The notes below the pieces were generated by a model that worked only from the letters and a program-made list of their open reading frames with translations, was not told the DNA's origin and ran no database searches. Source: Anadara kagoshimensis (taxonomy: Eukaryota > Mollusca > Bivalvia > Arcoida > Arcidae). Taken from it: a stretch of 64,000 nucleotides of DNA. Location of the stretch: contig CM037871.1 in NCBI GenBank assembly GCA_021292105.1, positions 59,852,866 to 59,916,865 of the forward strand, read 5' to 3'. The position numbers were made by a program, and so were the translations under genes. Shown piece after piece: positions 37,739-61,320 of the stretch (its first letter is position 1; each line of letters begins with the position of its first letter).

Positions 37739-37750
37739 CTTATTACACTA

Positions 37751-39187: not shown

Positions 39188-39191
39188 CTAG
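39188..39191. repeat. Target-site duplication (CTAG), left copy
   Basis: CTAG directly precedes the left LTR and recurs directly after the right LTR at 49646-49649. Four-base duplications are usual for several Ty3/gypsy lineages. Confidence 0.85.
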
Positions 39192-39880: not shown

Positions 39881-39892
39881 TCTCCCTCTTGT
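39881..39892 (-). promoter_or_regulatory. Polypurine tract
   Basis: Read on the minus strand, ACAAGAGGGAGA abuts the first base (TGTCAC) of the 3' LTR. This is where a plus-strand primer for reverse transcription is expected. Confidence 0.85.
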
Positions 39893-42021
39893 CCAGCTAA
39901 ACTTGTTCCACAAGTTTTAAAAATGTTATAAGAAATGAAAGAGGAAAGATTTTTAACTAGAAATTTTGGTTGTCAACTTACCAGAAATTAATATGCATGT
40001 ACAATATATACAATTGCGCAATACAAAAGAAAAAAAAATATATTATCAATTACATTATTCAAAAAAATCTTAAAATGGAAATATGTCTATCTGATAGTAA
40101 ATCAGTAAAATTTCAATAGTTTCCAAAATTCTGAATCATAATACAATTCTGAAAATTTGTAACATAAATCTCATATTATCTCTTGTTAATGGTCATTTCA
40201 ATGACAAATCCTTGCAAATGTTTTGTAATAATGTAAAATGTTCATTCAATGTTAATACTCTGTGAAATGTTCACTCAATGCTATATACTTTGTGAAATAT
40301 TCATTCAATGTTATATACTCGTATGTAAAATGTTCATTCAACGTTATATACTCTATGTAAAATGTACATTCTATGTTCTTTGATTTATGTTACCATCACA
40401 ATGAGTTTTATATTATATCATATATATATATCCCTTTACATATAGTTCATGGTTCATAATGCAATGTCCTTACTGATCAGTCCGTACTTTGTTATGTAAC
40501 ATAAATTCAAAATCATTCATTTTTATAAATGCAAATTATGTAAATATTGAACTTGTAATATAATGACTTATTACTGTCCATCTGTGTCTAAATCATGTCA
40601 AAAAAAAAAATACAAACTATTGTCTGTCACTGATATTCACTAATATAATGTATATTACCGTACTCACAACTTGATTCACCGATAATTCACTGATATTCAC
40701 TATAATATTCACTGATATAATGCTATCACTGGTAACTTGATTTACTGAATTTGTTTTTTTTTTATTAAAATTTTTTTTTTTTTTACACTTGTATATTAAA
40801 CATAACTTTATATATTTAAAAACATATTTCACTTCACTGAATAAAATTCCATTATGAATTTGTTCCTTGAATATGTGAATTTTCCTACGTAACGAATCAC
40901 ATTCAATTTTGTTGTTATTGATTGATCTAACACAAGTCTATGCCTCACATAGTCTCCTGTAGTGTCATGGAGATCCAGCGTTGTACCATTGTAGTCCAGC
41001 GTTGTACCATTGAAGTCCGGCATTGTCCAATAAAGTTCATCGTTGTACCATTGTAGTCCATCGTTGTACTATTGTAGTCCAGCGTTGTACCATTGTAGTC
41101 CAGCGTTGTACCATTGTAGTCCAGCATTGTACCATTGTAGACCTAACATACCATTATCTTTTGCTGGGTTAAGACACTCTGTAACTAGTACAACTACTAA
41201 ACATTGTGCATATAATATTCCAACGTAACATGTGACAACATATTTAATTAATGATTTAGTGAAACTTAAAAGAAATACATGTATATTGAAGTTATAACAT
41301 AATTTTGTTCAGATATTGCCTGTTACACTAGATTATTGAGTATGAAGGGGGAGGGGTACCACTGCTCCCTTACCTAGATATCCCTAACAGTCCTTATAGC
41401 GGTTACATCCACACATTTTACTGTTCACCTGCAATTTAAAGATTGAATTAACCTGGCAGGCACATGATTCACAAGTAATCTAATGTGCGGGTCCCTATAC
41501 TAACTAGCCTACCTGTAGAAAAAAAAGTTTGGCAGTGATATTAAAAAAAAACTGAATGAATGATAATAGAAATGTTATATTTATTTTTAGTTCAATTGGA
41601 TTTTTCTATTCAACTTTTAACCATTTAAGGACAAAAAATTCCGAGATTTGTTTTACTTATTGCCTATTACATGTATTTTTAATTTGTAAACAAAGTAAAT
41701 ATGGAAGTCTTTTTCTTGTTGCAAAAACTTGCATTTACAATTTCTAAAATTTCTTCAACTCCAAAGTAAATGATGATTTCTTTAACACTCCTCAAATGCA
41801 TGTTAACCTACACTTGAGTTTTACACCTAGTCCCCGACACAGTTAAGGTAAGAGACTATTGTATGTGCTAAACAAATACTTATGCTCACAAATGTGACTG
41901 AAAATTATAATTTTGCTTATTAACCAAAAAAATAATTAATTTCCACTTCCACAGTACTTATTTTGTCTTTTATTTATGTGATATTTTAACATGTGAAATT
42001 CTATTTAAAGTTTGTTTTTTT
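39893..42021. other. Non-coding 3' region of the LTR element, with two short tandem repeats
   Basis: This lies between the second frame and the 3' LTR, inside the element. A degenerate 30-34-bp repeat (AAATGTTCATTCAATGTTATA) occurs at about 40236-40380. A 21-bp repeat (CCAGCGTTGTACCATTGTAGT) occurs about eight times at 40974-41142. Short open frames here are translations of these repeats. Confidence 0.7.
40974..41142. repeat. 21-bp tandem repeat, about 8 copies
   Basis: Copies of CAGCGTTGTACCATTGTAGTC with few changes. The array belongs to the 3' non-coding part of the LTR element. Confidence 0.88.
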
Positions 42022-43323
42022 AGCTCACCTGAGCCAAAGGCTCAGATGAGCTATTGCAATCTATCACCGTCCGTCGTCCGTCGTGCGTCGTGCGTCGTGC
42101 GTCGTGTGTCGTGTGTAAACTTTACATTTTAATCTTCTCCTTCAAAACTACTGGGCCATATTTGATGAAACTTGGTGATTATCATGCCTGGGTAACAGCC
42201 TTTCAAAATTGTGTTCGGGGTTTGGCCACGCCCAACAAGATGGCCGCTGTTACTAAAAATAGCAAAAAGACAAAAAAATCTTCTTCTCTGAAACCAAAAG
42301 GTGCAGGCAAATTTTGATTGGATATTTGGATTCAGCATACCTAGGAACATTAAAATTGTGTTTTTCATGAAAATTAGACGAAAAATAGGTTACGCGTTTT
42401 TTGCGTAAAATTATGTAATTTTGAAAATGAGACATTTATTGGTATAACTTCATAATGGCTGAAGATAATTGTATGGAGTTTTCACTGTTGATCTTGTCTT
42501 GCAATTTTCTTCCAATTGATGTCAAGGTCGAAGGTCAAGGTCATGTCCCAGTTTTTGACCTTTGATAAAAAATGCTATTTTTTTAACATTTCTTGTGATA
42601 ATGGCGTAGGGTTTTCAGTTATTTGTAGATATTGACATAACGATCATTTTGATACATAGATCAGGGTCATGGGTTCAAAGGTCAAGGTCACAGATGTCCA
42701 AGAATACCAAAATAGTTAATTATCTGCAAAACTATGAATTTTTTGTATAGGCATGTATATCTGAATATTGTAGGTAATGGCACAATGGTCATTTTGATAT
42801 ATAAATAAAGGTCATGGGTTCAAAGGTCAAGGTCACAGATGTAAACAAGTAATGAAATGGTTAATTATCTCAAAAACTATAAACTTTTTGTATAGGTATG
42901 TATATTGGAATATTGTAGGTATATGCACAACAATCATTTTGATATATGAATGAAGGTCATAGGTTCAAAGGTCAAGGTCAAAGATGCAAACGAATACTTA
43001 AATGGTTAATTATCTCAAAAACTATAAACTCTTTGTATAGGCATGTATATTGGAATATTGTAGGTATTGGCCTAATGTACATTTTAATATACAGATGTTT
43101 TAGCTGTTTATAAATAATATATTGTAGCTAGACTTTAAATATGTTATATACAGCATAATTATATAATAATTATTATAATTAATTTGCAAAAATACTTGCA
43201 TATTATTGGCCCTTACTGCTGAAAATTTTGATTTTCTCTTTATTAATGTCATTGACCATTGAACCTCTGCATAAGATATGTACTCTTCCTCAGGTGAGCG
43301 TTAAGGCCCATGGGCCTCTTGTT
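42022..43323 (+). mobile_element. AGCTCACCTGA element nested in the LTR retrotransposon
   Basis: Ends are AGCTCACCTGAGCCAAAGG and CAGGTGAGCGTTAAGGCCC then ATGGGCCTCTTGTTT, as in the copy at 33334-36370. The core has about three recognisable 144-bp monomers (around 42719, 42862 and 43008). It inserted in T-rich DNA shortly downstream of the stop codon of the element's second frame. The 87-codon open frame near its left end is repeat-derived. Confidence 0.87.
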
Positions 43324-43353
43324 TTTGTTTTTTTTTTTTATTTTGATCCCTTA

Positions 43354-44925
43354 TTAGTTGTTAAGTCCCAAACTACGCAGATGAGCTTCATAACTAGCCT
43401 TGTCAATAAAATCTTCAAATTTATTGACGCACCCTAGAGGACAGTTCGAGTTTGATGCTATTACCCACTCTGGATCATAAATATGTTTTTGTTTGTAATG
43501 TAGTAAGAAATATGGGTTATTGTTCACAATTTTAAATTGTGAAATGTGTGATACAGTTACAAAACTTGGATGTGAGAAGGAAGGCTGTGGATTATTTTTT
43601 GCCTCTTGTTCATTTATGACCCTTTGTTTCTCTATTTCTCCTTTTATAATAGTAAATAATGTTGAGAGTAATTGTTGTTCATTTACCCGATGAATGGGAT
43701 GCCATTGCGATATTTGACCTCGCTGTAATATTTTCATATATACTCTATCCTCAGATATTTTAATTGCTTGAATGTCAAATCTGTTCCAATATATGCATTT
43801 TGAATTGCTTTCTGCCTCACATATAGCAATTGGATATTGACTGATACAAGGTTGCTCCAAGGTTTTAGTCACATCTTTATAATCACATGTGTCAGGCTTA
43901 GGTAATGATGTGGCAGTTTGTACATTGGGAGACATTATTGTTTCATGTGAGTTTATGCTATTGATTTGGGATGTGTTTGACACACAAGGAATACTCATTG
44001 GTTGGGGAAAAGCTATTGGGGGCTGACACATATTTATAAGATTTGGTGGTGGTTTTGAAACATCCACAGGGATTAATATAGGAATATTATGAAATTGAGA
44101 AGATTTGTCTAAACACATTTGATTTTCTGAATGCCTATCTCCCGTTACGTTTTCTAAAGTTATCTGTTGCAATGTGGATGTTGATGGCTGTGGGTCCTGA
44201 CTAGAGTTTTGGCTATTAGATGTAGATGGAGTATTTTGATCTTCGTTATTGTTTTGTGGATTAGTGGCATCATCCTTTTTCTTAAAGTATCTATTTCTTG
44301 GAGGTGGACGTTTTCTTTTTCTACCATTCATGTTGTATAACTTATGAAATTCTTCTTTTAAAGCAAGTGGTACTTGGTATGCATATGCCCATGATGGTTG
44401 ATATTCACGGTTATTCCATCTGATAAGATACTGAGTAATACCATTTTGGGCCACAGCCTTTATGATTTTCTTAATGTCTTCTGAGTTGATTAATGGTAGA
44501 TTATCTTTGTATTTTGTTTTACCATTTCTGCTCCGTTTCTTGTTGGTCTGTTGGTTTCCTTGAGTATTGTCCATATTGTCATTACTGGTACCTGGTTTGT
44601 TTTGATTACTATCTGTATTGTTCTTTTGTTTCTTTTTCTTGTTTCCGCCATTTCGTCCATTGTCATTCTGTGGTATATCATTGTTGATATTGTCAGGTGG
44701 TTGCTGGTTTTGCATTTGGTTTCCATGATCATTTAGCTGCTGAGGCACGTCATTTGGAATTTCGTCAGCATCCATTTCCTCATCTAGCTCTTGATATTGG
44801 TCTGGTATATTTGTTGGTCTGTTGTCTGGGCTGTAATATGGCTTGAGACGTGCGCTGTTGATCAGAGATTTAATTTCTTTATTATTTGAAATTTTCCGAA
44901 TTTTAAAGGTATTTGGTGGACCCAT
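43354..44925 (-). CDS. Gypsy element second frame: integrase C-terminus, chromodomain and long tail
   Basis: The frame of 523 codons starts exactly where the pol frame loses similarity. Its first 32 residues (MGPPNTFKIRKISNNKEI, then RLKPYY) are the second half of the GPY/F module of Ty3/gypsy integrases, so it is the 3' continuation of pol in a shifted frame. A chromodomain-like segment follows at about residues 152-200 (ITQYLIRWNNREYQPSWAYA), then the basic stretch NGRKRKRPPPRNRYFKKK. A long Asn/Pro/Ser-rich region leads to a second chromo-like module near the end (about 455-505: PYFLLHYKQKHIYDPEWV). Chromodomains guide integration to particular chromatin in chromoviruses. Whether the break from pol is a mutation or programmed shift is unclear; I see no typical slippery heptamer. 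Confidence 0.85.
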   Translation of the reverse strand: MGPPNTFKIRKISNNKEIKSLINSARLKPYYSPDNRPTNIPDQYQELDEEMDADEIPNDVPQQLNDHGNQMQNQQPPDNINNDIPQNDNGRNGGNKKKKQKNNTDSNQNKPGTSNDNMDNTQGNQQTNKKRSRNGKTKYKDNLPLINSEDIKKIIKAVAQNGITQYLIRWNNREYQPSWAYAYQVPLALKEEFHKLYNMNGRKRKRPPPRNRYFKKKDDATNPQNNNEDQNTPSTSNSQNSSQDPQPSTSTLQQITLENVTGDRHSENQMCLDKSSQFHNIPILIPVDVSKPPPNLINMCQPPIAFPQPMSIPCVSNTSQINSINSHETIMSPNVQTATSLPKPDTCDYKDVTKTLEQPCISQYPIAICEAESNSKCIYWNRFDIQAIKISEDRVYMKILQRGQISQWHPIHRVNEQQLLSTLFTIIKGEIEKQRVINEQEAKNNPQPSFSHPSFVTVSHISQFKIVNNNPYFLLHYKQKHIYDPEWVIASNSNCPLGCVNKFEDFIDKASYEAHLRSLGLNN

Positions 44926-47900
44926 TTCTGTTTATAATAAGGACCAACATAACACTTCTGCAGTTTTCTGACCTGATCCTTACTACGTTTACTGCAGAGC
45001 AGCCATACTCTATCTCCTGGCAAAAATTCTGGTCTTTGGGCATTTCTGTCGTGAATAGTTTTGTATCTCAATTTATGTCTTTCAGTGTTTTCTGCTGCTA
45101 TTTTTCTGGCTATTTCCAATTTATGTAGTGTAGCTGCCAAATGAATTCTATGGTCTTGTTTCAAGTTGTCTTTTGGAATTAAATTAGTGTCTATTGGAAA
45201 TACGGGTTGTCTACCAAAAAGCAAATAAAATGGAGCATGTTCCGTAGATTGAGTTGCTGGTGTCATTCTGTATGCCATCATAACTGCTGGAAGTATGTCC
45301 ACCCACTTATCTTGTTGTTCAGCACAGTAAGTTTTTAAAGTCTGGATGATGAAACCATTAAATCTCTCAACAGCCCCATTGGTTTCTGGATGGTATGATG
45401 ATGTATACGTTCTCTTCACTTGAAATAGTTCAGAGAGGGCTTTAATTAGCTTTGAAAGAAAGTTAGCTCCACGGTCACTTACTAGTGTTCTGGGTGCCCC
45501 ATATCTTGTAAAAATTTCTTTGAATAGAATATCTGCTATTTCTGTAGCTTCCTGTGTTCGCATTGGAAAACATTCAACCCATTTTGAGAAAGAATCTTGC
45601 ATGACCAAAATGTACTTATATTTTAAAGGACCTGAAGGTGGGAAACCAGATAATATGTCTATGTGCCATCTTGAAAATAGGTCTTCTACTGGTAACGGTC
45701 TTAATGGAGCAGGTTTTCTATGCTGAAATCGTTTAGATTGCTGACAAATTTCACAGGATTTTATGTAATCTAAGACATCCTGGAACATTCTCGGCCAATA
45801 ATATTTTGGTTTCAATGATGCAAAAGTTCTTTCATGACCTTGATGGCCACCACCAGCAATACAATCATGATAATTTTGAAGTATTTCATCTCTCAAAGGA
45901 TGTGGTACTGCAATACATTTAATAATTCTGTCATTCTTGGCCATTCCTTTGCCTCTGATGCTGCGTAAATGATACAGAATGCCATCTATAATTTCGTAGT
46001 CATATGATATTGCAATAACTTTCCTAGCCTTGTGTTTGTCCTCAGGCAAAATTTCTCTCAATTTATAATTGTACACGTCTTCAAAGTCAGTGTCAATTTT
46101 TTGTAAATGCTGCAAATTTGGTACCTGAAGGAGATCATGTTGTTGGTCAGTATTGTCAGGTACTTCAATATTGTCATCATTTTCTGTGTTTTTAAATACA
46201 GGCATTACAGGCACTGACTTGGTAACTGGTATATCCTCATAATATTCCAATGTTACAGATGAAATTTCTCTGATGGAATGACCTTCAATAGCATTGATAT
46301 ATCCATCCATAAATATATCCTGTTGACTATTATTGTCTGGGGTTGGTTCAGGATAATCACGTCTTGAAAGACCATCAGAATTGCCATTATTTTTCCCCGG
46401 TTTGTGAATAATTTCAAAATCGTAGCCTTGAAGCTGAAGAGCCCATCTACCCAAACGGCCTTGTTTATTACGTAAATCTTGTAACCATTTTAATGAAATA
46501 TTGTCTGTGTACACAATAAATTTAGTGTTTGCTAAATAAGGTTTAAATAATTTAATAGCTTCCACTAATGCTAGACCTTCCTTGTCAGTGATGTGCCAAG
46601 CTTTTTCTCTGCCATTGAGACCTCTACCTCCATATGCTATGGGGTGTTCCTTATTATCACTCCCAGTTTGACTAAGTACATAGCCTATAGCTGTATCACT
46701 AGCATCAGTGGATACAATGAAAGGTTTCTCAAAGTCGGGAAAGGCGAGAATAGGTGTATTACATAATGCATTTTTAAGTGTTTGAAAAGCTTTTTCACAT
46801 TTGTCTGACCATTGAAATTTAATACCTTTTCTAAGAAGAGCGTTTAATGGAGAAGCAATATTAGCATAATTTTTTACAAATTTTCTGTAAAAATTACACA
46901 CACCTAAAAATGATTTAACTTGTTTTGCTGATTTTGGTTGTGGGAAAGTTGCAATAGGATCTGTTTTCCCAGGATCAACTTTTACACCATCTTTTGATAT
47001 TTTATGACCTAAATAGTGAACTTCTTTAGCAGCAAAATGACACTTAGTTGGTTGTAGGGTTATATTTCCTTGTCTCAATTTATCAAAAACTAAAGCTAAA
47101 TCTTTTAAATGTTGTTTAAAATCTTGGCTATAAATGAGAACATCATCAATATAACAAAGTGCTATTTTCCAATTTAACTCATTCAGAACCTTTGACATCA
47201 AGGCCTGATATGTCAAGGGAGCTAATTTCAAACCAAATGGTAATCTTCTAAATTCAAATAACCCACGATGTGTTGTAAAAGCTGTTTTATGCTGAGTTTC
47301 TGGGTCTAAACCTATTTGCCAGAAACCATTCATACAATCTATAACTGTAAAAATTTTTGCCTTGGCATCAGCAAGTGTATCAAAAATGTCATCAAGACGA
47401 GGTATAGGGAAGTTAACTGTATCAATAGTAACAGCATTAAGCTTTCTGAAATCTAAAGCTATTCTATATTGTGGGTTTTCGGGGGTAGAAGATTTCTTTT
47501 TAACAAGTACTACAGGACTGCTCCAATATGATGAGCTTTCTGTTATTATATTATGTTTTAACATCTCATCTAAATGTTTGTCTAAATGACGTATTTTGTC
47601 AGGTGATTGTCTGTAGGGTGCAGACCTTACAGGCTTAGCATCTCCTGTTTCTATTCTATGTAGCACTAAATTTGTTTTTCCTAACTCGGATAAATCCTTG
47701 GCAAAGACATCACGGTTTTTTCCTATTAACACAAGTAAATCATGTTTTTCACTTTCATTTAAAGTGGAGTTATCTAGAGTTATACCCAAATCTTTAGCTA
47801 GAGATTTATAATGAGTGTCGGTTAACACTGACTTACTACCTAGTAAGTTATCCTCAGATACAGAATGTATGTATTCATTGTTAGTGTCCTCTGACCAATC

Positions 47901-48671
47901 AACAATACAATCTGAATCTATTTTATAGGCTTTAGCTATAACACAATTTTCTCTAATAAGTATTGGTAAATTGGTGGGGTTTAAAATTTTAAAACAACCT
48001 AACCCGTTACTTACTTGAGTTATACATTTAGCACCTATAAGTTGCTGGTTTATTAATGAAACAGTTGGCTCCAAGAGCAAGGCCTCGTCTTCTGACGCAT
48101 TAGTAATTTTAACCTTAACAACCGTTTCATGATGAGGGGGAATTGGCGTATTAGAGCATGGCCTGACTAATCCACAATTATTTGTATTTTCTGGTGGTTT
48201 AATGAGAAGGGGAACTTCTAACATGCCATTTTTAAGTATTAAGGAACTATTGCTGAAATCAATATGAGCTTCATGTGTTTTGAGAAAATCTATACCTAAT
48301 ATTACTTGATGATGAAGTCTATCAAATACATGGAGTGTTTGATATATAATTAATCCATTTAATTTGATTGGAACTTCTACTGTTCCACATACTCTGTGTC
48401 TCTCACCACAAGCCCCTATAATCGAATGTACTGATGTTGGATGTTTGAGTTCATAATTTTTGAAAGATTTATCTAAAATTGCCTTGGAACAACAAGAAAT
48501 TGTTGCCCCAGTGTCTATGAGACATTTAGTTGTATAATTGCCTAATTTAGCTTTTATTGTATTTTTGTCTAAGTTTAATACTAATGAAATAGGTGGTTCA
48601 TTTAAATTTGAAATATTTTGAGGAGCACTATTTTTACAAATTTCTTTTGAACAATACTTGTAATGGGCCAT
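44862..48671 (-). CDS. pol: Gypsy pol polyprotein: protease, reverse transcriptase, RNase H, integrase
   Basis: The 1269-codon frame is uninterrupted. It has an aspartic protease active site LIDTGATISCC near residue 51 and an RT with LPFGLKLAP and the catalytic YIDD at about 506-510. RNase H begins with STDASDTAIG and ends before HKPGKNNGNSDGLSR. The integrase has the HHCC zinc finger (HDCIAGGGHQGHE ... CEICQQSK, about 930-975) and the core Asp-Asp-Glu in RWHIDIL, LVSDRGANF and HPETNGAVERFNG. It ends in the first half of the GPY/F module (LQKCYVGPYY), after which the frame is wrong and stops. All catalytic residues are present. There is no gag and no nucleocapsid knuckle before the protease; the ATG at 48671 lies about 290 bp from the 5' LTR. 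Confidence 0.97.
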   Translation of the reverse strand: MAHYKYCSKEICKNSAPQNISNLNEPPISLVLNLDKNTIKAKLGNYTTKCLIDTGATISCCSKAILDKSFKNYELKHPTSVHSIIGACGERHRVCGTVEVPIKLNGLIIYQTLHVFDRLHHQVILGIDFLKTHEAHIDFSNSSLILKNGMLEVPLLIKPPENTNNCGLVRPCSNTPIPPHHETVVKVKITNASEDEALLLEPTVSLINQQLIGAKCITQVSNGLGCFKILNPTNLPILIRENCVIAKAYKIDSDCIVDWSEDTNNEYIHSVSEDNLLGSKSVLTDTHYKSLAKDLGITLDNSTLNESEKHDLLVLIGKNRDVFAKDLSELGKTNLVLHRIETGDAKPVRSAPYRQSPDKIRHLDKHLDEMLKHNIITESSSYWSSPVVLVKKKSSTPENPQYRIALDFRKLNAVTIDTVNFPIPRLDDIFDTLADAKAKIFTVIDCMNGFWQIGLDPETQHKTAFTTHRGLFEFRRLPFGLKLAPLTYQALMSKVLNELNWKIALCYIDDVLIYSQDFKQHLKDLALVFDKLRQGNITLQPTKCHFAAKEVHYLGHKISKDGVKVDPGKTDPIATFPQPKSAKQVKSFLGVCNFYRKFVKNYANIASPLNALLRKGIKFQWSDKCEKAFQTLKNALCNTPILAFPDFEKPFIVSTDASDTAIGYVLSQTGSDNKEHPIAYGGRGLNGREKAWHITDKEGLALVEAIKLFKPYLANTKFIVYTDNISLKWLQDLRNKQGRLGRWALQLQGYDFEIIHKPGKNNGNSDGLSRRDYPEPTPDNNSQQDIFMDGYINAIEGHSIREISSVTLEYYEDIPVTKSVPVMPVFKNTENDDNIEVPDNTDQQHDLLQVPNLQHLQKIDTDFEDVYNYKLREILPEDKHKARKVIAISYDYEIIDGILYHLRSIRGKGMAKNDRIIKCIAVPHPLRDEILQNYHDCIAGGGHQGHERTFASLKPKYYWPRMFQDVLDYIKSCEICQQSKRFQHRKPAPLRPLPVEDLFSRWHIDILSGFPPSGPLKYKYILVMQDSFSKWVECFPMRTQEATEIADILFKEIFTRYGAPRTLVSDRGANFLSKLIKALSELFQVKRTYTSSYHPETNGAVERFNGFIIQTLKTYCAEQQDKWVDILPAVMMAYRMTPATQSTEHAPFYLLFGRQPVFPIDTNLIPKDNLKQDHRIHLAATLHKLEIARKIAAENTERHKLRYKTIHDRNAQRPEFLPGDRVWLLCSKRSKDQVRKLQKCYVGPYYKQKWVHQIPLKFGKFQIIKKLNL

Positions 48672-48929
48672 ATTTATTATAATGTCTTGTTTGATTTAGG
48701 AAAAATAAATTGAAATTTTGCAAATATTACAAAACTATTAAATGGATGTAATAAATTAAATCAAAATAAAAATTGAGATTGATAAAATTTTGCCTTAAAA
48801 AAATTTGTCACATGTACAATGGAAAAGCACAATAACAGCAATAGTAGTTGTACTTACAGGAATTGGCATTTTTGTCTTCTCTTCTCTTTAGTCTGTGGGT
48901 CAGGCTGCACTCGACTTGGCATGGAGATG

Positions 48930-48959
48930 GTACCAATAGGAAAGATCCTTCTCCCCATC
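48930..48959 (-). promoter_or_regulatory. Candidate primer-binding site region
   Basis: Read on the minus strand, the 5' LTR end GTGTTA is followed after two bases by TGGGGAGAAGGATC. A TGG start immediately inside the LTR is the usual form of a tRNA primer-binding site, complementary to the CCA end. I cannot assign the tRNA. Confidence 0.4.
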
Positions 48960-49645
48960 TAACACCCTCCAGATGTGCGGGCGGACTGCCGGGGGTGGAG
49001 CCCAGGGTTGTCGGAGGATGTTACTATAGGGTGGTCTACCTTGTGGTAGATGGAACAACTAAAACTTCAGTTATTCTATTTACATCTTTTATTCATCGCC
49101 ATAACCATGTTACTCTCCTTCTCTCTCCGACTCGCTCTCTCGATTTTATATTCAAATATACAGTTCTTATATACATGTAAGTTGACAACCAGAAACACCC
49201 TAATGGTTCCAATAACATATGGTATAACTTTGATGTTTTGCTCAAAGCACAATATTTTTGACATTTTCAAAAGAATAAATAAACTAGTAAATAAAACATA
49301 AATAACTGATATTAATGTGATAATGCCTAAAGGTCATTACTTTGACCAACATGACATGCCTGTTTTCTAATTACCACATTAAGGGTTTTCTTAAGATTCT
49401 AATGTTCCCCAAAGGGATTAACAATGTTGATATGATAACTCCTACCCCTTAATGCCTATTTATCATAAAATTACATCAGATATCTATATAATAAATTAAT
49501 GTTTTATATGGGAAATTACTGATTAACAATTATAAAACTACTTTTGTTAATTGAACTGAACTAAATTCTAAATTAATAAATATTGTTTTGTATAATTCTA
49601 ATGAAATGTGGCATATTCAAAATCATTCATTTTTACTCTGTGACA
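48960..49645 (-). repeat. 5' LTR of the gypsy element
   Basis: Direct repeat of 39192-39880, with the same TGTCAC start and GTGTTA end in element orientation. The flanking CTAG at 49646-49649 completes the target duplication. Confidence 0.94.
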
Positions 49646-49998
49646 CTAGCGTCATATATCACTTTCTGAATGTGTTTTATGATTAAACTCAAAAATGACA
49701 CTAGACAAGTTTGTAAGTCTTATTGGCAAGCTTTATGTCTCTCATCACAATATTGTAGGTATTAATGATATGTACCATGTCTGTGTATCCATAATTTACA
49801 GTGGATATATTTGATGTCCCATTGTTCTAAGTTCCTTACAGTCTCAATTTTGATTTACACATAGTGGATGTAGCTAACTAAACAAGAGGTGCTAACCCTT
49901 ATATGAAGTGCCCTGCCTCACTAGATGGTATGTAACATGATTTGCCAGTTTCAAAGTTTTTACATTTACTTTGCTTTAGGATTTTTTTTAACATGGTA

Positions 49999-50263: not shown

Positions 50264-50447
50264 TACAGTCCAACCTGCCTTAAAGGTCACCTCTATATAA
50301 TGGCCACATGCACATAAAGGCCAGTATAATTGTATCCGAATTGTTTTTTTATTCATGTTTTTTGAACCTGTATATAAAGGTCACCTGTCCATATAGACCA
50401 CTTTTACTGGTTCCCTTGGGTGACCTTTATAGACAGGTTTGACTGTA
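50264..50447 (-). mobile_element. TACAGTC inverted-repeat element (MITE), intact 184-bp copy
   Basis: Ends are TACAGTCCAACCTGCC and GACAGGTTTGACTGTA. The copy is in reverse orientation relative to 55559-55723 and sits about 70 bp downstream of the ZP gene's stop codon. The terminal TA on each side is compatible with insertion into a TA target. Confidence 0.85.
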
Positions 50448-50517: not shown

Positions 50518-50813
50518 TTACTGATGTAATCTAGCAGTACAATTTTTCCTTAGAATGTAATATCGCCTACATACATATATCAGTGTTGAGATGGACAGTA
50601 ACAGAATGATCATAAACCCGGATACAATCACCAACATTAACTGGACTGTTGGAGTATATTCTGATGGTGTTGTGTTTTCTGGTTTCTTCTTGGTCTGCTC
50701 ATTATTTGTAAAGGTGTAATACTTGGATGTTAGGGTGAGCACATCATCATCATCTTTGTCTTCAGTAATGCCATCTGGAGAATCTATAAATAGATCGTCG
50801 AACAGCGAGTTTT
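50518..50813 (-). CDS. ZP gene, last exon: transmembrane segment and cytoplasmic tail
   Basis: The acceptor TTTTTCAG at 50814-50821 is preceded by a polypyrimidine tract. The exon encodes an acidic ectodomain stub, a TKKKPENTT stretch, one hydrophobic helix and a short tail ending RLHQ, then TAA at 50518-50520. Confidence 0.88.
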
Positions 50814-53800
50814 CTGAAAAAGAAAAAAAATAAATAGGAAAACAAACTGTCAGGACATATTTTTATTAACTAGCACTTCATTTGCGTTTGGGACAGTAAT
50901 GCCAGACACAATTTTAAATTTTTTACAACATTAATATCAATTTGGCCTGGCTCTAGAAGAGAAGACTCAGTGGTTAAAAATAAAGACATCTGGCTTTTAT
51001 TTTGAATAACTGAATGTTAAATACCTACTCATCTACTATCAATGTATCAAATCTACATATTAAATTTGAAATAAATCACTCCATAAAAAATCTATAACAA
51101 CAACTGTTTAACTTATTTATAGTAATGGCTGTCAAATCAGATTTCAGCTGGCCATTCAATGTCAGACACAATTTTTAATCTGCATCAACCAAGGAACTTC
51201 TTTACCAAAATTGGTTCTGATCATCCCAGTAGTCTAAGAGGAAAAAGAATAACTGAGACGACCCTTGTATTCAGAATTTCTTTCCCATCCCAGAGGTGGT
51301 CAAGATAAGTGGATTACATTTTATTTTGATGGCTTCAAATTTATCTTATGAATAAAATACCTTATTTTATGCTTTGAGTTGAGTTGAATAATGGTGTTTA
51401 ACGTTGCTGAGTCAAGACTATTTCACTTATACATGTATTTGAATGTTGCCAGCTATGGGCGAAAGAGCAGAAATTTTGCTTTTGCGCTGCCCTGATGGCA
51501 TTATACAGCACAGTTCTTTATCGTGTCAAGCCTACCGTGACACAGGACCTCATTTCTTATAAGTGCCCATCCGAAAGAACTGTGACTTTCATTTCATAAT
51601 GCCGAGTGCTTCGCGAAAGAGCAGTCACTACCCACTTACAAGTTTCAGGTCAGACCCAGTCGGGGTTTGAACCCATAACCTCCCACTTACAGAGACAGCA
51701 CTCCACGGACTGAGCTACAGGTTTTTTTATGCTTTGAATTTGTTTGTGAACATGTATGTCAGGCCAAAGACTAGGGTGGGATAAAAAATTCTGCATCTAC
51801 AAAAATGGGAACAACAAGACAGAAATTCTTGTCCTTGAATGAGAATAAAATTATAAGGACAAATGCTCACTTTACCATGCAATAAGCTGAGCTGACTATT
51901 GCCTGTTGAGCTAAATATGTCTATTGTTATAAAGAGTATGATCATGTGGCACATCATGAAGAATTCCACTGATCATCAGATGCAAACAAACATAAAGCAG
52001 GTTATAAAATTTATGGTTTTAAAGAACAAACTTTTGGAAGATCATTGAAGGTGCATTGAAATTGGTTCATTAAAATAATTTAACCTTTAATAATCATTAA
52101 TATTATATGAAAACTGCTTAACACTGGGCAAAGATGTATAGTACAGGCTATTCTGCATTTTGTGATGCAGGATTAAAAGTTGCATGTTTTATTTTACTTT
52201 ATCAATACATTTTCACCTCACCTTTTTGTAGAGATCTTTTTCTTCTTGCTGCATCTGTGCATGATGACTGGAACAGAAAACAAAAAAATTCTTAATGAAG
52301 CATACAAATTGTGTTTAAATATATCCAATAATAATTATTCAAAAATGAACGAATTTCAATCATATACATCAAGATCTTGGTTTGTAATGACATATTCTGA
52401 AATGCAAATTCCATCAATGAACTCATTCTTCTAGGTTTATAATAGCTGTATTCATTCCATAAAACATCAATCTGTGATACATTGTCACCCTTTAAAGAAA
52501 TTTCTTGCTTAGCGATTGGTTTACTTGCCAGGGTACATAGAACATGTTCAGAAATCTGACAGAGTCCATTAACGCATGTGATGTTTAGAGGTAAAAGGGA
52601 AGTAACTCGTACATCACACACGTCTAGTTACCGTAAACAAACATGGCGACAGCATATGCAAGTCCCACAAAATACAAAATGGAATAAAGATCCAACTCAG
52701 GTAATGCTTTGAAGGGTGACCAAAACGTTATACAGGGATTTGCATTTTTTTGGCAGGTTACACGGCCCCATGTACCCTGTCAAAGATTTATGTACCCTGA
52801 GCTGCAGGCAAAGGGATACATTCATCTTTGATGGGGTACCTGGGGCCGTGTATAACTTTATAATATCAAGTTCAAATAAATATTACCAGTTAATGGTAGT
52901 TCTTATTCAACTTAAAATGTCACCTGTAAAGGCATTAATAGGTTAAACAAACATTTAAATGTCTGAGCAGTTATCAAACTAAAATTTCAAAAATGAACCC
53001 AGTTGTTCAAAGCTTGATTAGTTTAATCAATGATTAGCAGAAATCTAAACATAAAAAAATTTATATCATTATGGCATCAATAGTTTTGTTACAATATGCT
53101 TTAGTTTGATGGAATTGTTATTCACTTTCAACATTTTAACATTAAAAAATACAATATATCTGAAATTATGACAAATTTAAATTTTGACTTATCAATTGAT
53201 TAAACTAATAAGGTCTCATACAACTGACCAATAAAGTGTTTTGTGAGGATGACGGCATTTTATGCTAGTACAACAGAATGTATTTACCCCATCACAGTTT
53301 GACAGACATCCAGTAAAATTACAAGAAAACCGCAAACCAGAATCTTGATCCAGTTGGAATATTTTAAAGTAAGGACTTCTTATAACCCCTGAATTAGCTG
53401 TAAATCCTAATGTCTCTGGAATTATTATACCATCACCACATCTGTAATATATGTAACAATGTATTACAGTCAAACCTGTCTATAAAGGTCACCCAAGGGA
53501 ACCCCTGAATTAGCTGTAAATCCTAATGTCTCTGGAATTATTATACCATCACCACATCTGTAATATATGTAACAATGTATTACAGTCAAACCTGTCTATA
53601 AAGGCCACCCAAGGGAACCCCTGAATTAGCTGTAAATCCTAATGTCTCTGGAATTATTATACCATCACCACATCTGTAATATATGTAACAATGTATTACA
53701 GTCAAACCTGTCTATAAAGGTCACCCAAGGGAACCCCTGAATTAGCTGTAAATCCTAATGTCTCTGGAATTATTATACCATCACCACATCTGTAATATAT

Positions 53801-56800
53801 GTAACAATGTATTACAGTCAAACCTGTCTATAAAGGTCACCCAAGGGAACCCCTGAGTTAGCTGTAAATCCTAATGTCTCTGGAATTATTATACCATCAC
53901 CACATCTGTAATATATGTAACAATGTATTACAGTCAAACCTGTCTATAAAGGTCACCCAAGGGAACCCCTGAATTAGCTGTAAATCCTAATGTCTCTGGA
54001 ATTATTATACCATCACCACATCTGTAATATATGTAACAATGTATTACAGTCAAACCTGTCTATAAAGGCCACCCAAGGGAACCCCTGAATTAGCTGTAAA
54101 TCCTAATGTCTCTGGAATTATTATACCATCACCACATCTGTAATATATGTAACAATGTATTACAGTCAAACCTGTCTATAAAGGCCACCCAAGGGAACCC
54201 CTGAATTAGCTGTAAATCCTAATGTCTCTGGAATTATTATACCATCACCACATCTGTAATATATGTAACAATGTATTACAGTCAAACCTGTCTATAAAGG
54301 TCACCCAAGGGAACCCCTGAATTAGCTGTAAATCCTAATGTCTCTGGAATTATTATACATGTACCATCACCACATCTGTAATATATGTAACAATGTATTA
54401 CAGTCAAACCTGTCTATAAAGGTCACCCAAGGGAACCCCTGAATTAGCTGTAAATCCTAATGTCTCTGGAATTATTATACCATCACCACATCTGTAATAT
54501 ATGTAACAAAGTATTACAGTCAAACCTGTCTATAAAGGTCACCCAAGGGAACCCCTGAATTAGCTGTAAATCCTAATGTCTCTGGAATTATTATACCATC
54601 ACCACATCTGTAATATATGTAACAAAGTATTACAGTCAAACCTGTCTATAAAGGTCACCCAAGGGAACCCCTGAATTAGCTGTAAATCCTAATGTCTCTG
54701 GAATTATTATACCATCACCACATCTGTAATATATGTAACAAAGTATTACAGTCAAACCTGTCTATAAAGGTCACCCAAGGGAACCCCTGAATTAGCTGTA
54801 AATCCTAATGTCTCTGGAATTATTATACCATCACCACATCTGTAATATATGTAACAAAGTATTACAGTCAAACCTGTCTATAAAGGTCACCCAAGGGAAC
54901 CCCTGAATTAGCTGTAAATCCTAATGTCTCTGGAATTATTATACCATCACCACATCTGTAATATATGTAACAATGTATTACAGTCAAACCTGTCTATAAA
55001 GGCCACCCAAGGGTACCCCTGAATTAGCTGTAAATCCTAATGTCTCTGGAATTATTATACCATCACCACATCTGTAATATATGTAACAATGTATTACAGT
55101 CAAACCTGTCTATAAAGGCCACCCAAGGGAACCCCTGAATTAGCTGTAAATCCTAATGTCTCTGGAATTATTATACCATCACCACATCTGTAATATATGT
55201 AACAATGTATTACAGTCAAACCTGTCTATAAAGGCCACCCAAGGGAACCCCTGAATTAGCTGTAAATCCTAATGTCTCTGGAATTATTATACCATCACCA
55301 CATCTGTAATATATGTAACAATGTATTACAGTCAAACCTGTCTATAAAGGCCACCCAAGGGAACCCCTGAATTAGCTGTAAATCCTAATGTCTCTGGAAT
55401 TATTATACCATCACCACATCTGTAATATATGTAACAATGTATTACAGTCAAACCTGTCTATAAAGGCCACCCAAGGGTACCCCTGAATTAGCTGTAAATC
55501 CTAATGTCTCTGGAATTATTATACCATCACCACATCTGTAATATATGTAACAATGTATTACAGTCAAACCTGTCTATAAAGGCCACCAAGGGTACCAGTA
55601 AAAGTGGCCTTTATATACAGGTTCAAATAATATAAATGTAGAACAATTTGGATTTAATTCTACTGTCCTTTATAAGCAGGTGGACCTTATATAGAAGTGG
55701 CCTTTAAGGCAACTTGGACTGTAATTACACCATGTACAATAAATAAGATTCACCAACAGCTTGCCTAAAGAGTCAAGTTAATGAAAAACAAATTTTACCT
55801 TCCTTTTCCAAAATATAATCAAAATATGAATTAATTTTTTTTAAGTAATTATAAAACTGAAACCAAATGTCAGTAAACAGATATATGCCAAAGCCATAAA
55901 TTAAAATGCTATAAAAAAAATAAGTGGCCTCTAAAATTACAGAGTATTAGCATCTTCCACATAGGAAGATTCATGTGCTTTACCAGTGTATATTGACGGT
56001 GTATACATACAAGCCTCTTGAAATTATTTTGTTTAGTGACCTTCAGTTTTAAAGCCAGTATTCTCTAATGGTCTTTGAATCACTGTCACTGTTAAACTTC
56101 AGGAAAAATATTGCAATATATTTTTTTCACTAACCCTGCATTTAAAACCTGGTAGTTAATACTGCTATCATCTTTACCTATAGCAAGGCAGTCAGTTACC
56201 TGTATATTGGAACCTGTAATAAATGATATAATATATACATTCTCTTGAAGGTTGAGATACAGACAACTTTAAATTCTAGCCATGTTTTAGACACTGCTAG
56301 CTTTTAAGTTATTATGATAAGTTAACTGGCAAAGTAAACTTTGATAACACTATAAGGTTTTATCTAACATCAGACTAGTTTTTCTATCTGATTTGACAGA
56401 AATACAAGTTTTATCGAACACGTATGATACAGAATCTTGGCGGTAAAGTACACGTGCACTTTTAGTCCGATTTCTCATTGTTACTTCATTGAGGAATCTC
56501 CAATTTGTCAAATGTCAATAATGACGTCATCACTACAAAGCATACGTCATAACATAGTTCATTGGGTTTCTGTGGTAAAATTAATTTTTTCACATAAAGT
56601 ATTGTTTTTTATTATTTTAAATAACCTAATTGGAAATGTTAGATAAAAATATCATATACACAGTGTGTATGTACAACCCTTCGTATCAGGTCTTGTCCTT
56701 TATCTGTAGCCGTATCACTACTCGTCGCGCATAGTGATACATCTACAAAAGGACTTGACCTGATACTGAGGGTTGTACATACACACTGTGTATATATTAT

Positions 56801-59559
56801 ATGTATTTATCAGAAGGCATATGTTCAGTCTCAGGTATTGGTCAGTCACTATGCATTTAGAAATGAAAGTTGTGGGTTTTTCAAGTGAGACCTTGTAAGC
56901 CAAAGCACTCTCACTGATATTTACCACATTAGAAAGGTATATCTCTGTAACTTCACCTATAGATGGTGACATCTCAATGTAAGTGAAATAATCTTGACTG
57001 GGACATCATACCCATTCCAATCACTAAATCATTAATAGATTAGCCATGCAGATTCTATAGATGTATTTTCACTAGTCTAATATGCCATTTTTGGATTGCC
57101 AAATCAGATTTTTAGTATCGACCTAAATCGTGTGAACACAACAGCGTAGTGCCCCTTTAAGCACTTTTGTATATTTATATATACTATATATGAATTTCAA
57201 TATTGTTTAACTGCTGTATTTTGTATCTTGTAAATGTGTTATTTTGGTGTTTGTATGTTATAATTCATATTTGTAAAATGTTACTTAACATTCTTATATC
57301 TCTACATATATAGAGGAAATAAATAAAGAATGAATGAGCATAAAAAAATGAAAATAGTTTAAATGAATAGATTTAAACATTTAAACATCTAAGTATAGTT
57401 CATAAAGATTTACAGGACAATTTTAGTCTGATGCCATTGGAAACCCTTTGCCAGACAAGGAAAAGTTAGGTGGGGGTATGCTGCTTTACTTAACTTTACA
57501 CTGCTTGATTTTACACTTAATTTATTTTATTTTATTTATCATTAAATAAAATTTACAAAAATACATCTGAAAGTGATGCAAAACTGAATTTCAGTCACTT
57601 GAATCCTTGTATGCAACAATCACAACAGTGCTGTGTCCACTGAATTCATGTCACCAGTAAATAAAATAAGTTTATAATCTTTTTTTTTTAAATTGCCTAT
57701 ATTATTTTTTACAACACTTAAAAGACATCCAAGTGACATTTTTAACCACTGAAAATGATGCAATAGCAATTCACCATGTATATCTTCATCATTATTTACA
57801 GTTGAAGTGGTAAAAAAGTGTTCCTAATTAAGTCACATGGTGATGAAAGTCACATGACACTTCGTCTGGAACTTTGTATCCGAGAAACAGTGTATTGTTA
57901 CATCATAATAAACATAACCTAAAAGGGCAGCTCTTAATTAATGCATCAAATTATCTCCCTTTAGTTGTTGTACTTTTCAGTTACAGTATTCAACATGATT
58001 TCTGTTGTTTAAAGTTAATTTTATAAATAAATGTAAAATGACAGCTAATTCATCTAAAACCATTAACTTATAATATTTACAATATGACTGTATCTCTCTA
58101 TCGATGAAACATGCAGAAGCAATTGTATTGCAATTAATCCCTTTGAAAGACAATTGGCATGGGTTTATGACCCTTGATGTGTATCAATTTTCCTGCAATA
58201 TTATGTCATGTCCCGGTCGCCTGGTCATGTGAGATACGCCGATCTCACATGGCTAAAAACCCTATCTCACACGAACAGGTATGGAAGAAATAGCACCAAG
58301 GGTTGAAACAAATATGGGTACAAAATATTTATTAAAAGAAAGAATTGTAAATATAAGAAATGACATTTTTGCTCATGGTATTTCAAGGGGTAATGCAAAA
58401 TAGGTTGGCATGTGCCAAATTCAAAATGAAGGGTTTTGCCTTTCATCAAATTTGGCACGCGCCACACTATGTTGCATTACCCCTTGAATTACCATGATCA
58501 GAATGTCATTTCTTAATACAAAGACATCCAATCTACATGCAGTGATGGATCTATGGATATATTTTATATATAAAAGTTAACAAGCCAAAAACTGAACACT
58601 CCACTTTACTCCACCATCTCAGAACTGGCCCTTCAGTACAAGTGGAAGAACCCCGATTGGGGCCTAAAGTGCACCTACTAAGCCAACTCTGCTGACCAAT
58701 TAAAAGTTTTTAATAGAAATTACTCCTTTTGAAATTCACTCCTTTCCTTTGGTGGTCTTACTATACTGTATATGTTTATATAGCTCATTAAGACTATGTA
58801 TCTGTTCAGCTTTATAAAATGTATGTACTGTACTATACCCGATACGTTAGCTTTCAGTTGTATCCTCCTGCCAAGTGGTATAGTCTGTCCGTCAATCTGC
58901 TGGTCCAATATGGTGACAATATGGAAATCTACAGATCCTGATAATGTCCCGCCTTCATTTCTTACAATGTTTCTAGGGTTGTATCTAATAAAAAAAACCA
59001 AGCTAAAGATTAATGTTCATTTTCCAAAGTTACAAAATTTATATTTCACTATCTCAAGTCTGTTAAATATTACATGCAATATGTTTAGAAGGTCATTTTT
59101 GTATAATGGTTTATAATTTTATATTTTGGGTTTGGCCAACACAATTTATTGATCACAACACCTCTAGCTGTATGGACCAAAACTCCTGATTCTGGCAGAT
59201 CCTATAGTGAGAAAGTTAGTTTGTTCACTTGCTAAAGGTTGGTGGTTTTTTCAGGTACTCCAGTTTTCTCCCCATCTTATAGAACTGACCGCCTCAATAT
59301 AAGCAATAGTAACTGCATCAGGGCATAAAAATACAAATTATTTCAACTCCACCACAGCAGAATTCATGATTTTAATCAATAATACCGATTTCAAAATCAA
59401 AATACCAATTACTTCTGGGTAAATTAACAATTTAACAAAACACTTATCAAATAATTTTACACTAGACACTGACTTACTAAACGACACTGACATGTAGAAG
59501 ATTGAACATAATCACATCCGTACTTCATGAAGTGTTCAGTGGCAGATTTAAGAGGGGGT

Positions 59560-59607
<48 letters not shown>

Positions 59608-61320
59608 AATTTAAAAGAGAGAGAAAGAGAGAGAGAAAGCTATTGACTTATTATTTTCTTGGCCCCATCGGGGCTCTGCCCTAGACTCCTCGTCTCTGGA
59701 AGCTCGCACCTAGTATTGATATTATTTTCACCCCCCTTTAAAAAAAATCCTGGATAATTCTCAACCCCCCTTTCAAAAAATCCTAGATCCGCCCCTGGTG
59801 TTTACAGTCAATATTGTCAGACATTCATATAACAAGATCTCAATGGTGGACTTTTATGATATTTATTTTATTTTAAACAGTATTGCCATACACAATGATA
59901 TTATTGTATGAAAATTGGAGTTATAGTTATCTCCCATGCATTGTATATACAGTGATTATATATAGTGATTGTTTAATAAACATCAGTATTACTATTACTA
60001 TTGTATTCATAGGATTCTTAAATCTTTCCAGCCTAAAAAAACTGTTTGTAGACTAGAGATACCGGAAAATAAGTAATATTTTTTTTGGCAAGTTTGTGTT
60101 CCAAAAGTAGGATCAGCAGAAGCATATTAATATTTCTCTATCTTTCTATTGTAGCAGGACAGGACTAGTGTTGTGTTGTATACAGTAAATATAATACAAT
60201 GATTTACTGCCAGACTTTCTGGTCCGGATCTTTTAGCCTTGTAGCATAACACTCACTTTTTACCTAGGAGTGCCGGTTCGAACTTCAGGCAGGGTAGTCG
60301 GTGTTTTTTCAGGAGTATTTATTGTTACACCTCTATCTCTATTTTTAGTTTTTCAAATTTTTATTTAATTTTGTTTGATCAGAAATCCTCATTATACTTA
60401 CCCTTTACTTTCACTACTAAGACCGGAGTCTATTCTCTGGGTACCTTTAGACAGACAGCTGACAGTGTATTCCTCATTGTTAGACCCTACATTGCTCTCG
60501 TGTGTTCCGTAATACATCACCAATTTGACAGTTGTTAATCCAGAATCTGGATCAGGATTCTAAAGTAGGGATTGTAAATGTAAAGAATAAATCTTGGGTG
60601 CTAAATCAACTAGAGTTGAGTTGAGTAATTGGTGTTTAACGTCCCAGTCAACAATATTTCACTTATATCGAGGCCTCGTTTATTTTAAGTTCCCATTCCA
60701 AAGGACCATGACTTTCATTTTGTAATGCCGAGTGCTTGGTGAAAGAACAGTCACTACTGTCTTTCAAGTCTTGGGTCAGACCTGCCTGGGGATCGAAATT
60801 ACAACCTCCCACTTACAGAGCGGCTAAATCAACTAGAACTTGTGCAATTTTTATAACAACTATTATAGTAATGAAATATTTTAGAATAACTTTGTTGCAG
60901 CTGAAATGTTTTAATTAATAAACAAAATAAATGATACATTTTATGTTGTTATTTAAATTCTAATATTAAATGGAAGTTTTTTTTCACACTAAAGAATGAT
61001 TTATTTACTTGCTAAATTTATTACTTATGGTTGACTTCTAGGTCGCAGTTCTCAAAATTTAGGTCAAATTTAGCACAATGAATATTGCACACTTGTAGTT
61101 TTGAACACTGGATTTTGATAACATACTTTGAAATAGCAGTTCCCGGTTGAAGAAGTATCAACTCCGTAATATACCAGTATGTCTGCCTTTACTGTATTCT
61201 TATCTATGATATAAACACTGTCACCTGATCCACAATCCACATGTATTTTGACATAAAGATCTGATTTTACTGTTATAGTAGCATAGCTTCCAGGGCTGGC
61301 ATCTCCACAGTCTGGTTCGA
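50518..61320 (-). CDS. ZP (zona pellucida) domain membrane protein, 3' part of gene, seven supported exons
   Basis: ZP proteins are secreted or membrane-anchored matrix proteins that polymerise through ZP-N and ZP-C after furin-type cleavage. Supported exons (high to low): 61127-61320, 60402-60559, 58839-58984, 56135-56213, 53288-53441, 52222-52267, 50518-50813. All junctions are GT-AG and in phase, giving about 356 residues of the C-terminal part. ZP-N has four cysteines (DCGD, VDCGS, GNCYF, SCLSK). ZP-C runs from the fourth to the seventh exon with further cysteines (TDCLA, CGDG, SCNFTGCLSNC, SSC). RRKR in the sixth exon is the furin-type site. The last exon has an acidic stretch, a transmembrane helix (LMLVIVSGFMIILLLSISTL) and a 17-residue basic tail. 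N-glycosylation sequons are NVS, NFT and NTT. The first exon begins in phase 1, so the 5' part lies to the right. The subfamily is not recognised. Confidence 0.88.
51378..51724 (-). mobile_element. tRNA-derived SINE, full-length copy with 13-bp target duplication
   Basis: Read on the minus strand it begins with a tRNA-like head (TAGCTCAGTCCGTGGAGTGC; B box GGGTTCAAACCCCG), continues with the family body and ends CATTATTCAACTCAAC. An exact 13-bp direct repeat TTTTATGCTTTGA flanks it (51365-51377 and 51725-51737). It lies in the ZP intron between the micro-exon and the last exon. Confidence 0.93.
52222..52267 (-). CDS. ZP gene, furin-site micro-exon
   Basis: This 46-base exon after CTGTTCCAG encodes SSCTDAARRKRSLQK and ends AAAG|GTGAGG. 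It links phase 0 on its left to phase 1 on its right. It supplies the last ZP-C cysteine and the RRKR cleavage motif that releases the mature ectodomain in this family. Confidence 0.87.
52292..52621 (-). CDS. Unrecognised open frame in a ZP intron
   Basis: A 109-codon frame contains ITCVNGLCQISEHVLCTLAS and VSQIDVLWNEYSYYKPRRMS. The composition looks protein-like, but there is no ATG at its start, only GTG after a TAA, and no clear acceptor. It reads towards the ZP micro-exon and stops before it. On the other strand ACATGGCGACAGC begins a 14-codon frame at 52644. It could be a decayed retrocopy or an exon of a nested gene; I do not recognise it. Confidence 0.2.
   Translation of the reverse strand: MCDVRVTSLLPLNITCVNGLCQISEHVLCTLASKPIAKQEISLKGDNVSQIDVLWNEYSYYKPRRMSSLMEFAFQNMSLQTKILMYMIEIRSFLNNYYWIYLNTICMLH
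52757..52856. mobile_element. 100-bp hairpin element, ACACGGCCCC ends
   Basis: The left end GTTACACGGCCCCATGTACC and the right end (reverse complement GTTATACACGGCCCCAGGTA) are imperfect inverted repeats. The locally raised GC content contrasts with the surrounding intron. Confidence 0.7.
53288..53441 (-). CDS. ZP gene, ZP-C exon whose 5' end is amplified upstream
   Basis: This 154-base exon follows ATATATTACAG and ends GATGGG|GTAAAT. It encodes CGDGIIIPETLGFTANSG, then FKIFQLDQDSGLRFSCNFTG and CLSNCDG, the typical F-F-F-C-C-C end of ZP-C. The first 56 bases of the exon, with its acceptor, are repeated 18 times directly upstream (53442-55590). Confidence 0.92.
53386..55590. repeat. 116-bp array of exon fragment, splice acceptor and MITE end (19 copies including the real exon)
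   Basis: The unit starts CCCCTGAATTAGCTGTAAAT (reverse of the ZP-C exon's coding start) and continues through the acceptor (CTGTAATATATG) and 20 bp of intron. It then enters the TACAGTC element and ends ACCCAAGGGAA. Unit starts step by 116 bp from 53386 through 53502 to 55480. One copy has a 5-base insertion near 54356. Copies differ at AAGGTCACC/AAGGCCACC, AATG/AAAG and GGGAA/GGGTA. The junction between units carries AACC, present both in the element (GGGAACCAGT) and in the exon (TATAACCCCT). The full element resumes at the array's right end (55559-55723). Confidence 0.96.
55559..55723 (+). mobile_element. TACAGTC inverted-repeat element (MITE), 165-bp copy at array edge
   Basis: It begins TACAGTCAAACCTGTC and ends GGCAACTTGGACTGTA. 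It is the complete parental copy from which the 116-bp unit took its last 40 bp or so. It sits in the ZP intron between 53441 and 56135. Confidence 0.87.
56135..56213 (-). CDS. ZP gene, small ZP-C exon
   Basis: This 79-base exon follows TTATTACAG and ends GCAGG|GTTAGT. It encodes SNIQVTDCLAIGKDDSSINY and QVLNA. Only this frame is open, and it joins both neighbours in phase (split Gly codons on both sides). It was found from phase continuity. Confidence 0.85.
56656..56793. repeat. Imperfect fold-back repeat, about 63-bp arms
   Basis: The left arm starts ATACACAGTGTGTATGTACA; the reverse complement of the right end starts with the same 20 bases. The arms diverge slightly (TTCG/CAGT after AACCC) and meet at a CTCGTCGCGC loop. 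It lies in the ZP intron between 56213 and 58839. Confidence 0.88.
57001..58353. other. Intronic AT-rich sequence
   Basis: Part of a ZP intron. I see only a SINE body fragment at its left edge (about 56935-57005, AAGTGAAATAATCTTGACTG) and simple AT-rich text. Confidence 0.5.
58354..58515. repeat. Imperfect fold-back repeat, about 75-bp arms
   Basis: The left arm (TAAGAAATGACATTTTTGCT, then CAAGGGGTAATGCA) pairs with the right arm (reverse complement TAAGAAATGACATTCTGATC, then CAAGGGGTAATGCA). The centre holds GTGCCAAATT and AATTTGGCAC. Arms are about 80-85% matched by eye. Confidence 0.87.
58839..58984 (-). CDS. ZP gene, ZP-N/ZP-C linker exon
   Basis: This 146-base exon follows TTTTATTAG and ends TCGG|GTATAG. 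It encodes YNPRNIVRNEGGTLSGSVDF and GQTIPLGRRIQLKANVS. The PLG-R-LKA stretch is characteristic of the start of ZP-C. Confidence 0.88.
59541..59797. mobile_element. GGCGGATCTAGGA-type inverted-repeat element with a 47-base G run
   Basis: The right end (reverse complement CAGGGGCGGATCTAGGATTT) and the left end (GGCAGATTTAAGAGGGGG) are imperfect inverted repeats. The left G tract has expanded to 47 consecutive G (59560-59606), followed by a GAGA-rich stretch. Two internal stretches (AACCCCCCTTTCAAAAAATC; CACCCCCCTTTAAAAAAAAT) repeat each other. Confidence 0.7.
60402..60559 (-). CDS. ZP gene, ZP-N exon B
   Basis: This 158-base exon follows TACTTTAG and ends AAAGG|GTAAGT. It encodes NPDPDSGLTTVKLVMYYGTH and NEEYTVSCLSKGTQRID, the last ZP-N strands with the final conserved cysteine. 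Confidence 0.87.
60615..60823 (-). mobile_element. tRNA-derived SINE, shortened copy with 14-bp target duplication
   Basis: The tail GTTGAGTTGAGTAATTGG is at 60616 and the head is cut inside the tRNA-like part (ACAACCTCCCACTTACAGAG). An internal segment of the body is missing. The exact repeat CTAAATCAACTAGA flanks it (60601-60614 and 60824-60837). It lies in the ZP intron between 60559 and 61127. Confidence 0.9.
61127..61320 (-). CDS. ZP gene, ZP-N exon A
   Basis: This 194-base exon follows ATAATTTCAG and ends TTCAAA|GTATGT. It encodes EPDCGDASPGSYATITVKSD, DLYVKIHVDCGSGDSVYI and DILVYYGVDTSSTGNCYFK. It starts with two bases of a split codon, so another exon precedes it. Confidence 0.87.

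Follow-up and report, generated by a model that had tools for sequence, protein, structure and literature searches.

Clusters of tandemly duplicated, mutually exclusive exons of the Dscam type consist of whole exons with donors and open frames. In another class of repeat, represented by the minisatellite of IFI6 (6-16/G1P3), it is a splice site itself that is multiplied, and this repeat is said to be short, to lie at an exon end and to lack a transposable element (TE) end. According to Turri et al. 1995, as cited in passages of PMC4526556 and PMC3618361, it contains multiple splice donors, and the relevant passage of PMC4526556 states that two downstream repeat units act as splice donors to generate three mRNA species. 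Satellites seeded by TEs are well documented (sections of PMC6947457 and PMC5139131), and those derived from TEs or MITEs, including bivalve BIV160 and oyster HindIII, are reviewed in PMC6947457, although the words 'splice' and 'intron' occur 0 times in its main text. In addition, part of PMC4974935 describes intron gain by tandem genomic duplication.

The window, a stretch of 64,000 nucleotides from the bivalve Anadara kagoshimensis, contains a tandem array in which each unit carries a 3' splice site, the start of a coding exon and the end of a MITE. It was originally predicted that such amplification is not a described mechanism, which holds only in part: TE-seeded satellites and a splice-donor minisatellite are known, whereas an acceptor-bearing tandem array was not found in limited searches of open-access literature text.

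The ZP gene carrying the array

The array lies in a ZP gene, of which six exons were read:

61127..61320, minus strand: exon e1, from splice sites and frame reading
58839..58984, minus strand: exon e3, from the spliced frame
56135..56213, minus strand: exon e4, from the spliced frame, with the donor AGG/GTTAGTGA (the slash marks the splice junction) facing the array; 100% identical in a second locus
53288..53441, minus strand: true ZP-C exon e5, with the donor GGG/GTAAATAC, from the open spliced frame, the splice sites and the VERL_C match
52222..52267, minus strand: exon e6, from the spliced frame, with an RRKR cleavage-site-like motif
50519..50813, minus strand: exon e7, from the spliced frame, with a hydrophobic (transmembrane-like) segment and the stop

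Exons e3 to e7 join into an open frame that ends in the hydrophobic segment and the stop, with GT and AG present at every exon join. As the phase at the end of e1 does not match that of e3, an exon between the two has probably been missed. The VERL_C family of Pfam (PF25272) matches residues 66-194 of the query, from e3 to the start of e6, with an E value of 4.3e-39; the query joined e1 to e3 out of phase, and the match lies outside e1. Vitelline envelope ZP 8 (VEZP 8) of Haliotis rufescens, the sole protein past E 0.001 among 242 candidates, matches 52% of the query at 44% identity. The VERL_C (ZP) domain, a putative furin-type site and a putative membrane tail are all found in this gene, the RRKR motif and the hydrophobic tail having been read from the sequence. 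The predicted exon model is thus sound, and the host of the array is, judged by its predicted protein, a mollusc-like gene of the vitelline-envelope (VERL) type with a predicted role in the egg coat.

The 116-bp array and its unit

The intron before the ZP-C exon contains a real array of 116-bp units, which confirms the initial observation:

53384..55596, minus strand: 116-bp tandem array of 18 decoy acceptors and the true exon start, from TRF, unit splitting and the acceptor list
53442..53464, minus strand: intron portion of ~23 nt, present in each unit, from the sequence

TRF reports a period of 116, 19.0 copies, 98% matches and a score of 4246, so that the units are head-to-tail and near-identical as in a satellite or minisatellite. 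Read on the minus strand, the unit comprises 58 nt of exon start, the 39-nt end of a TIR element, 4 nt of which are in common with the exon, and an intron part of ~23 nt with AG at its end. The content foreseen for the unit is correct, while the lengths given for its exon and intron parts (56 and 20) are not. Both TRF and the acceptor list bear out the 18-fold array of acceptor, exon start and MITE end. The first exon base of the 18 decoys ranges from 53557 to 55535, the true acceptor is at 53441, and the true exon is, as had been proposed, the last copy in transcription order.

The junction ATATATTACAG/ATGTGG is kept exactly in 18/18 decoys of the window. Upstream of the acceptor the decoys are identical to the true copy over 18-116 nt; downstream, identity extends over 57-58 nt in 16/18, over 48 nt in one, and over only 14 nt in one that has a 6-bp insertion. 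The best branch-site-like word, TTGAC, is located in the element end, just outside the repeated intron part and 29 nt before the exon, where its inferred role is putative.

A second homologous locus

A search of the genome (1.115 Gb, 36 contigs) with a 261-base probe revealed a second homologous locus with the 116-bp unit on contig C15, ~258 kb from the window, which is new here and was beyond what the original prediction could see. Two blocks hold its copies, 33 in 60164826-60168598 and 237 in 60172622-60199901, the true exon included, and matches to a 75-nt core in these blocks have mean identities of 99.6% and 99.4%. The array-bearing intron of ~35.6 kb thus holds ~269 decoys, an approximate number because of many 1-nt indels that are probably uncorrected read errors, and decoy number differs ~15-fold between the two gene copies (18 vs ~269). 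Between the two blocks, a ~4-kb insertion at 60168640-60172620 has inverted CACTTTATAGACAAGCCCG ends and TGTA duplication-like flanks; its reading frames do not exceed 110 aa.

All six exons read are present in the second locus with 97.4-100% identity and with AG and GT kept. Over e3-e7, 11/240 codons differ between the loci, 6 synonymously and 5 non-synonymously, and intact coding in both copies provides modest evidence that both may be functional. The exact splice-junction 34-mer occurs in 239 genome copies, all on one strand; since the 18 in the window and the 221 in the second locus, true exons included, account for all of them, this exact junction is restricted to the two genes. A third gene copy was not seen among the matches listed, and ZP exons elsewhere have at most 49% identity (best 150 of 290 candidates).

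The homology between the loci covers at least 59836363-59920682 and 60115043-60214000, with 2.5% substitutions (range 1.0-5.1%) over 34.8 kb of alignments longer than 1 kb, some array and exon sequence being part of these. A divergence of 2.5% is within the range possible between alleles of a polymorphic mollusc. The array could be an assembly artefact, or the loci two alleles wrongly placed in tandem, as this low divergence would allow and as the indels in the large array, suggestive of unpolished reads, would also fit; in the latter case, the difference in decoy number would be a copy-number polymorphism instead. However, the unit was found in two separately assembled places, and runs of N are absent from both stretches. 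For a 3-kb piece lying farther right than the second locus, the 44 matches listed (best 40 of 8320 candidates) include no partner close to the window; this observation speaks for a segmental duplication rather than misplaced alleles but is not proof. An artefact or misplacement is considered unlikely.

The TIR element and the origin of the array

The element part of the unit has an identifiable source:

55559..55723, plus strand: near-complete TIR element (MITE, TACAGTC...GACTGTA) at the promoter-proximal array edge, source of the element part of the unit; 165 bp, 78% to the 184-bp copy

The 184-bp reference copy lies at 50264-50447, and the fetched sequence contains six near-full-length copies of 155-184 bp, one being the query's own source. 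With TIR-like ends of TACAGTC.../...GACTGTA, short length and high copy number, the element has the properties of a MITE. A 29-mer from its end has 4754 exact matches in the genome, these arrays included, compared with 0 for a backward control. TA stands at both ends of five of the six near-full-length copies, which is compatible with a TA duplication; an empty site was not found. Parts of the element are also present in two other arrays of the window, one at 7069-9664 (65 bp x 40; 82% over 39 nt of the TACAGTC element) and one at 10243-10923 (58 bp x 12; 85% over 47 nt), and thus the element may be prone to tandem growth here. Both recur in longer form in the second locus, with 54 and 21 copies.

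Other repeats and insertions were noted in passing. A retroelement at 43354-48695, which we take to be Gypsy-like, has two long reading frames, one of 525 aa and one of 1277 aa, and lies within 37644-49929, a segment passed over in the colinear alignment with the second locus. A 78-bp array of ~37 copies occupies window positions 1-2895 at the left edge, outside the ZP gene. On C4, a 59-Mb contig, four COX1 matches with internal TGA, one on the plus and three on the minus strand, are found within 50 kb (4487676-4537603), and represent either mitochondrial insertions or a misjoined mitochondrial stretch. For a COX1-like stretch, the best of the 120 hits listed has 72% identity.

The locus is probably best explained by insertion of a MITE, followed by tandem duplication and growth of the array, with the terminal exon still real and the resulting splicing burden tolerated. 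Presumably first, a TIR element of ~165-184 bp, from a family with thousands of end copies, would have inserted ~23 nt upstream of the ZP-C acceptor, where the element end is now found. The anatomy of the unit agrees with the original proposal that this MITE end was amplified together with the adjacent acceptor and exon start. Two breakpoints, one 58 nt into the exon and the other 39 nt into the element, meet at the unit junction in 3-4 nt of shared sequence, and a tandem duplication joining them would have created the 116-bp unit. The AACC microhomology reported at this junction is correct for the common element sequence, whereas the local intact element shares only ACC, and an overlap of 3-4 nt is too short for the mechanism of the founding duplication to be proved from it. 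Unequal exchange, a process with little direct support, may then have grown the array to the 18 extra copies counted in the assembly here and the ~269 of the homologous locus. The real exon persists as the terminal copy, its frame and splice sites reading as intact in both genes. The present state would most likely be a tolerated burden on splicing, in which the products of decoy use would end prematurely and be degraded, and the terminal acceptor may win often enough because it alone continues into a complete exon.

Variation within the arrays

The decoys comprise 6 distinct sequences among 18 in the window and 175 among 269 in the second array, the alignment of units behind these variants having edge artefacts at its first columns. 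Two variants occur in both arrays, an A/G difference at element position 90 (8/18 and 114/269) and one at intron position 3 (4/18 and 24/269), and hence the array was multi-copy before the loci parted or exchange has taken place between them. Neighbouring units share the element allele barely more often than expected by chance, at a frequency of 0.40 vs a shuffle mean of 0.33, the highest of 2000 shuffles being 0.42, and so lend unequal exchange little direct support. Along the long array, unit types recur with weak periodicity, the best lag, 35, being at 0.231 and other lags at 0.096-0.223.

It has also been considered that the true exon acts as a master copy that keeps the exon parts of the decoys clean by recurrent exchange, the array being the conversion partner of the gene. 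Substitution variants in the second array (266/269 decoys counted, one odd-length stretch dropped) point in this direction, as those in >=5 copies, a threshold chosen after the data were seen, affect 1 in 57 exon-derived sites vs 12 in 59 intron and element sites (Fisher p 0.002), with 11 singletons in the exon part and 8 elsewhere; exon-part indel totals were left unused because of an edge artefact at exon positions 46-48. At >=2 copies, however, the counts are 6 and 14 (one-sided binomial p 0.07), few independent events are involved, and the GGC variant of the true exon of the second gene is not among the 16 exon variants (of 17) that were listed. Such cleaning is distinctly unlikely, and a MITE-seeded array under tolerated burden remains the preferred reading.

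Predicted consequences for splicing

The claim that decoys have no donor is not upheld. The 8 GT sites listed per unit include GTG/GTGATG (1.10), TGG/GTGACC (0.99) and CAG/GTTTGA (-0.04); with a human-type matrix, five real donors of the gene span -0.89 to 7.97, and the scores of all three sites fall in this interval. The first of them is also present in the true exon, and its use in a decoy would leave a 5-nt exon. With decoy candidates no worse than some real donors, a simple exon-definition argument is weakened. Among the six acceptors read, that of e5 has the tract poorest in pyrimidines (0.59 vs 0.65-0.94).

By contrast with the missing donors, frame-breaking by decoy use is borne out in translation, each of the five routes translated ending in an early stop. 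Read-through meets its stop within the first element end. With an 82-nt decoy exon, whether included one, two or three times, the stop falls at the start of the next copy, and with a 65-nt decoy exon it falls a few codons into the next exon; a 10-nt decoy exon, which corresponds to no GT site, was set aside.

These stops would suit a regulatory rheostat, in which decoy number sets the amount of productive egg-coat mRNA through competition among acceptors and decay of decoy-spliced products. The ~15-fold difference between two intact genes is likewise compatible with it, as is the retention of the exact 17-nt acceptor in 18/18 decoys of the window and 246/269 of the second array, where ACAG/AT is kept in 267/269. 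Yet such conservation is expected anyway in young homogenised arrays, and no signal was obtained for RNA structure of the unit as a device to hide decoys, 183/200 shuffles folding at least as well (z +1.39). We hold this regulatory role to be very improbable. The least probable account combines the two, making the array a satellite acceptor that lives on its gene, with a master exon cleaning the decoys and decoy number tuning egg-coat protein per copy; if true, it would be a fast-evolving dial on a fertilisation gene.

The locus provides a natural experiment on splice-site choice, with up to ~269 acceptors ahead of the true one in one intron. If correct mRNA comes from both sister genes, the choice of acceptor must depend on exon context downstream; if it does not, the number of decoys acts as a brake on an egg-coat gene, and one that can be measured directly.

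Comparison with known systems

Like Dscam-like clusters, the ZP array places several similar acceptors in a row, but its units are exon fragments, and the translated routes give stops. It shares with intron gain, as far as PMC4974935 describes it, a tandem duplication across coding sequence, whereas here no new intron is evident and a pre-existing acceptor has been multiplied. Similar to satellites of the BIV160/HindIII type, known in molluscs from parts of the satellite review, it has part of a MITE or MITE-like element built into its unit; unlike them, it lies inside a gene and its unit also holds coding sequence together with a 3' splice site that is apparently functional. The array shows how coding sequence can be drawn into a satellite by a high-copy element beside a splice site.

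The IFI6 minisatellite, in the accounts cited above, is likewise a tandem repeat multiplying a splice site. It multiplies a donor, whereas the ZP array multiplies an acceptor, in a 116-bp unit that has a MITE end and reaches up to ~269 copies, and here use of a decoy would truncate the protein. What sets the ZP array apart is this extreme copy number within an apparently intact fertilisation gene.
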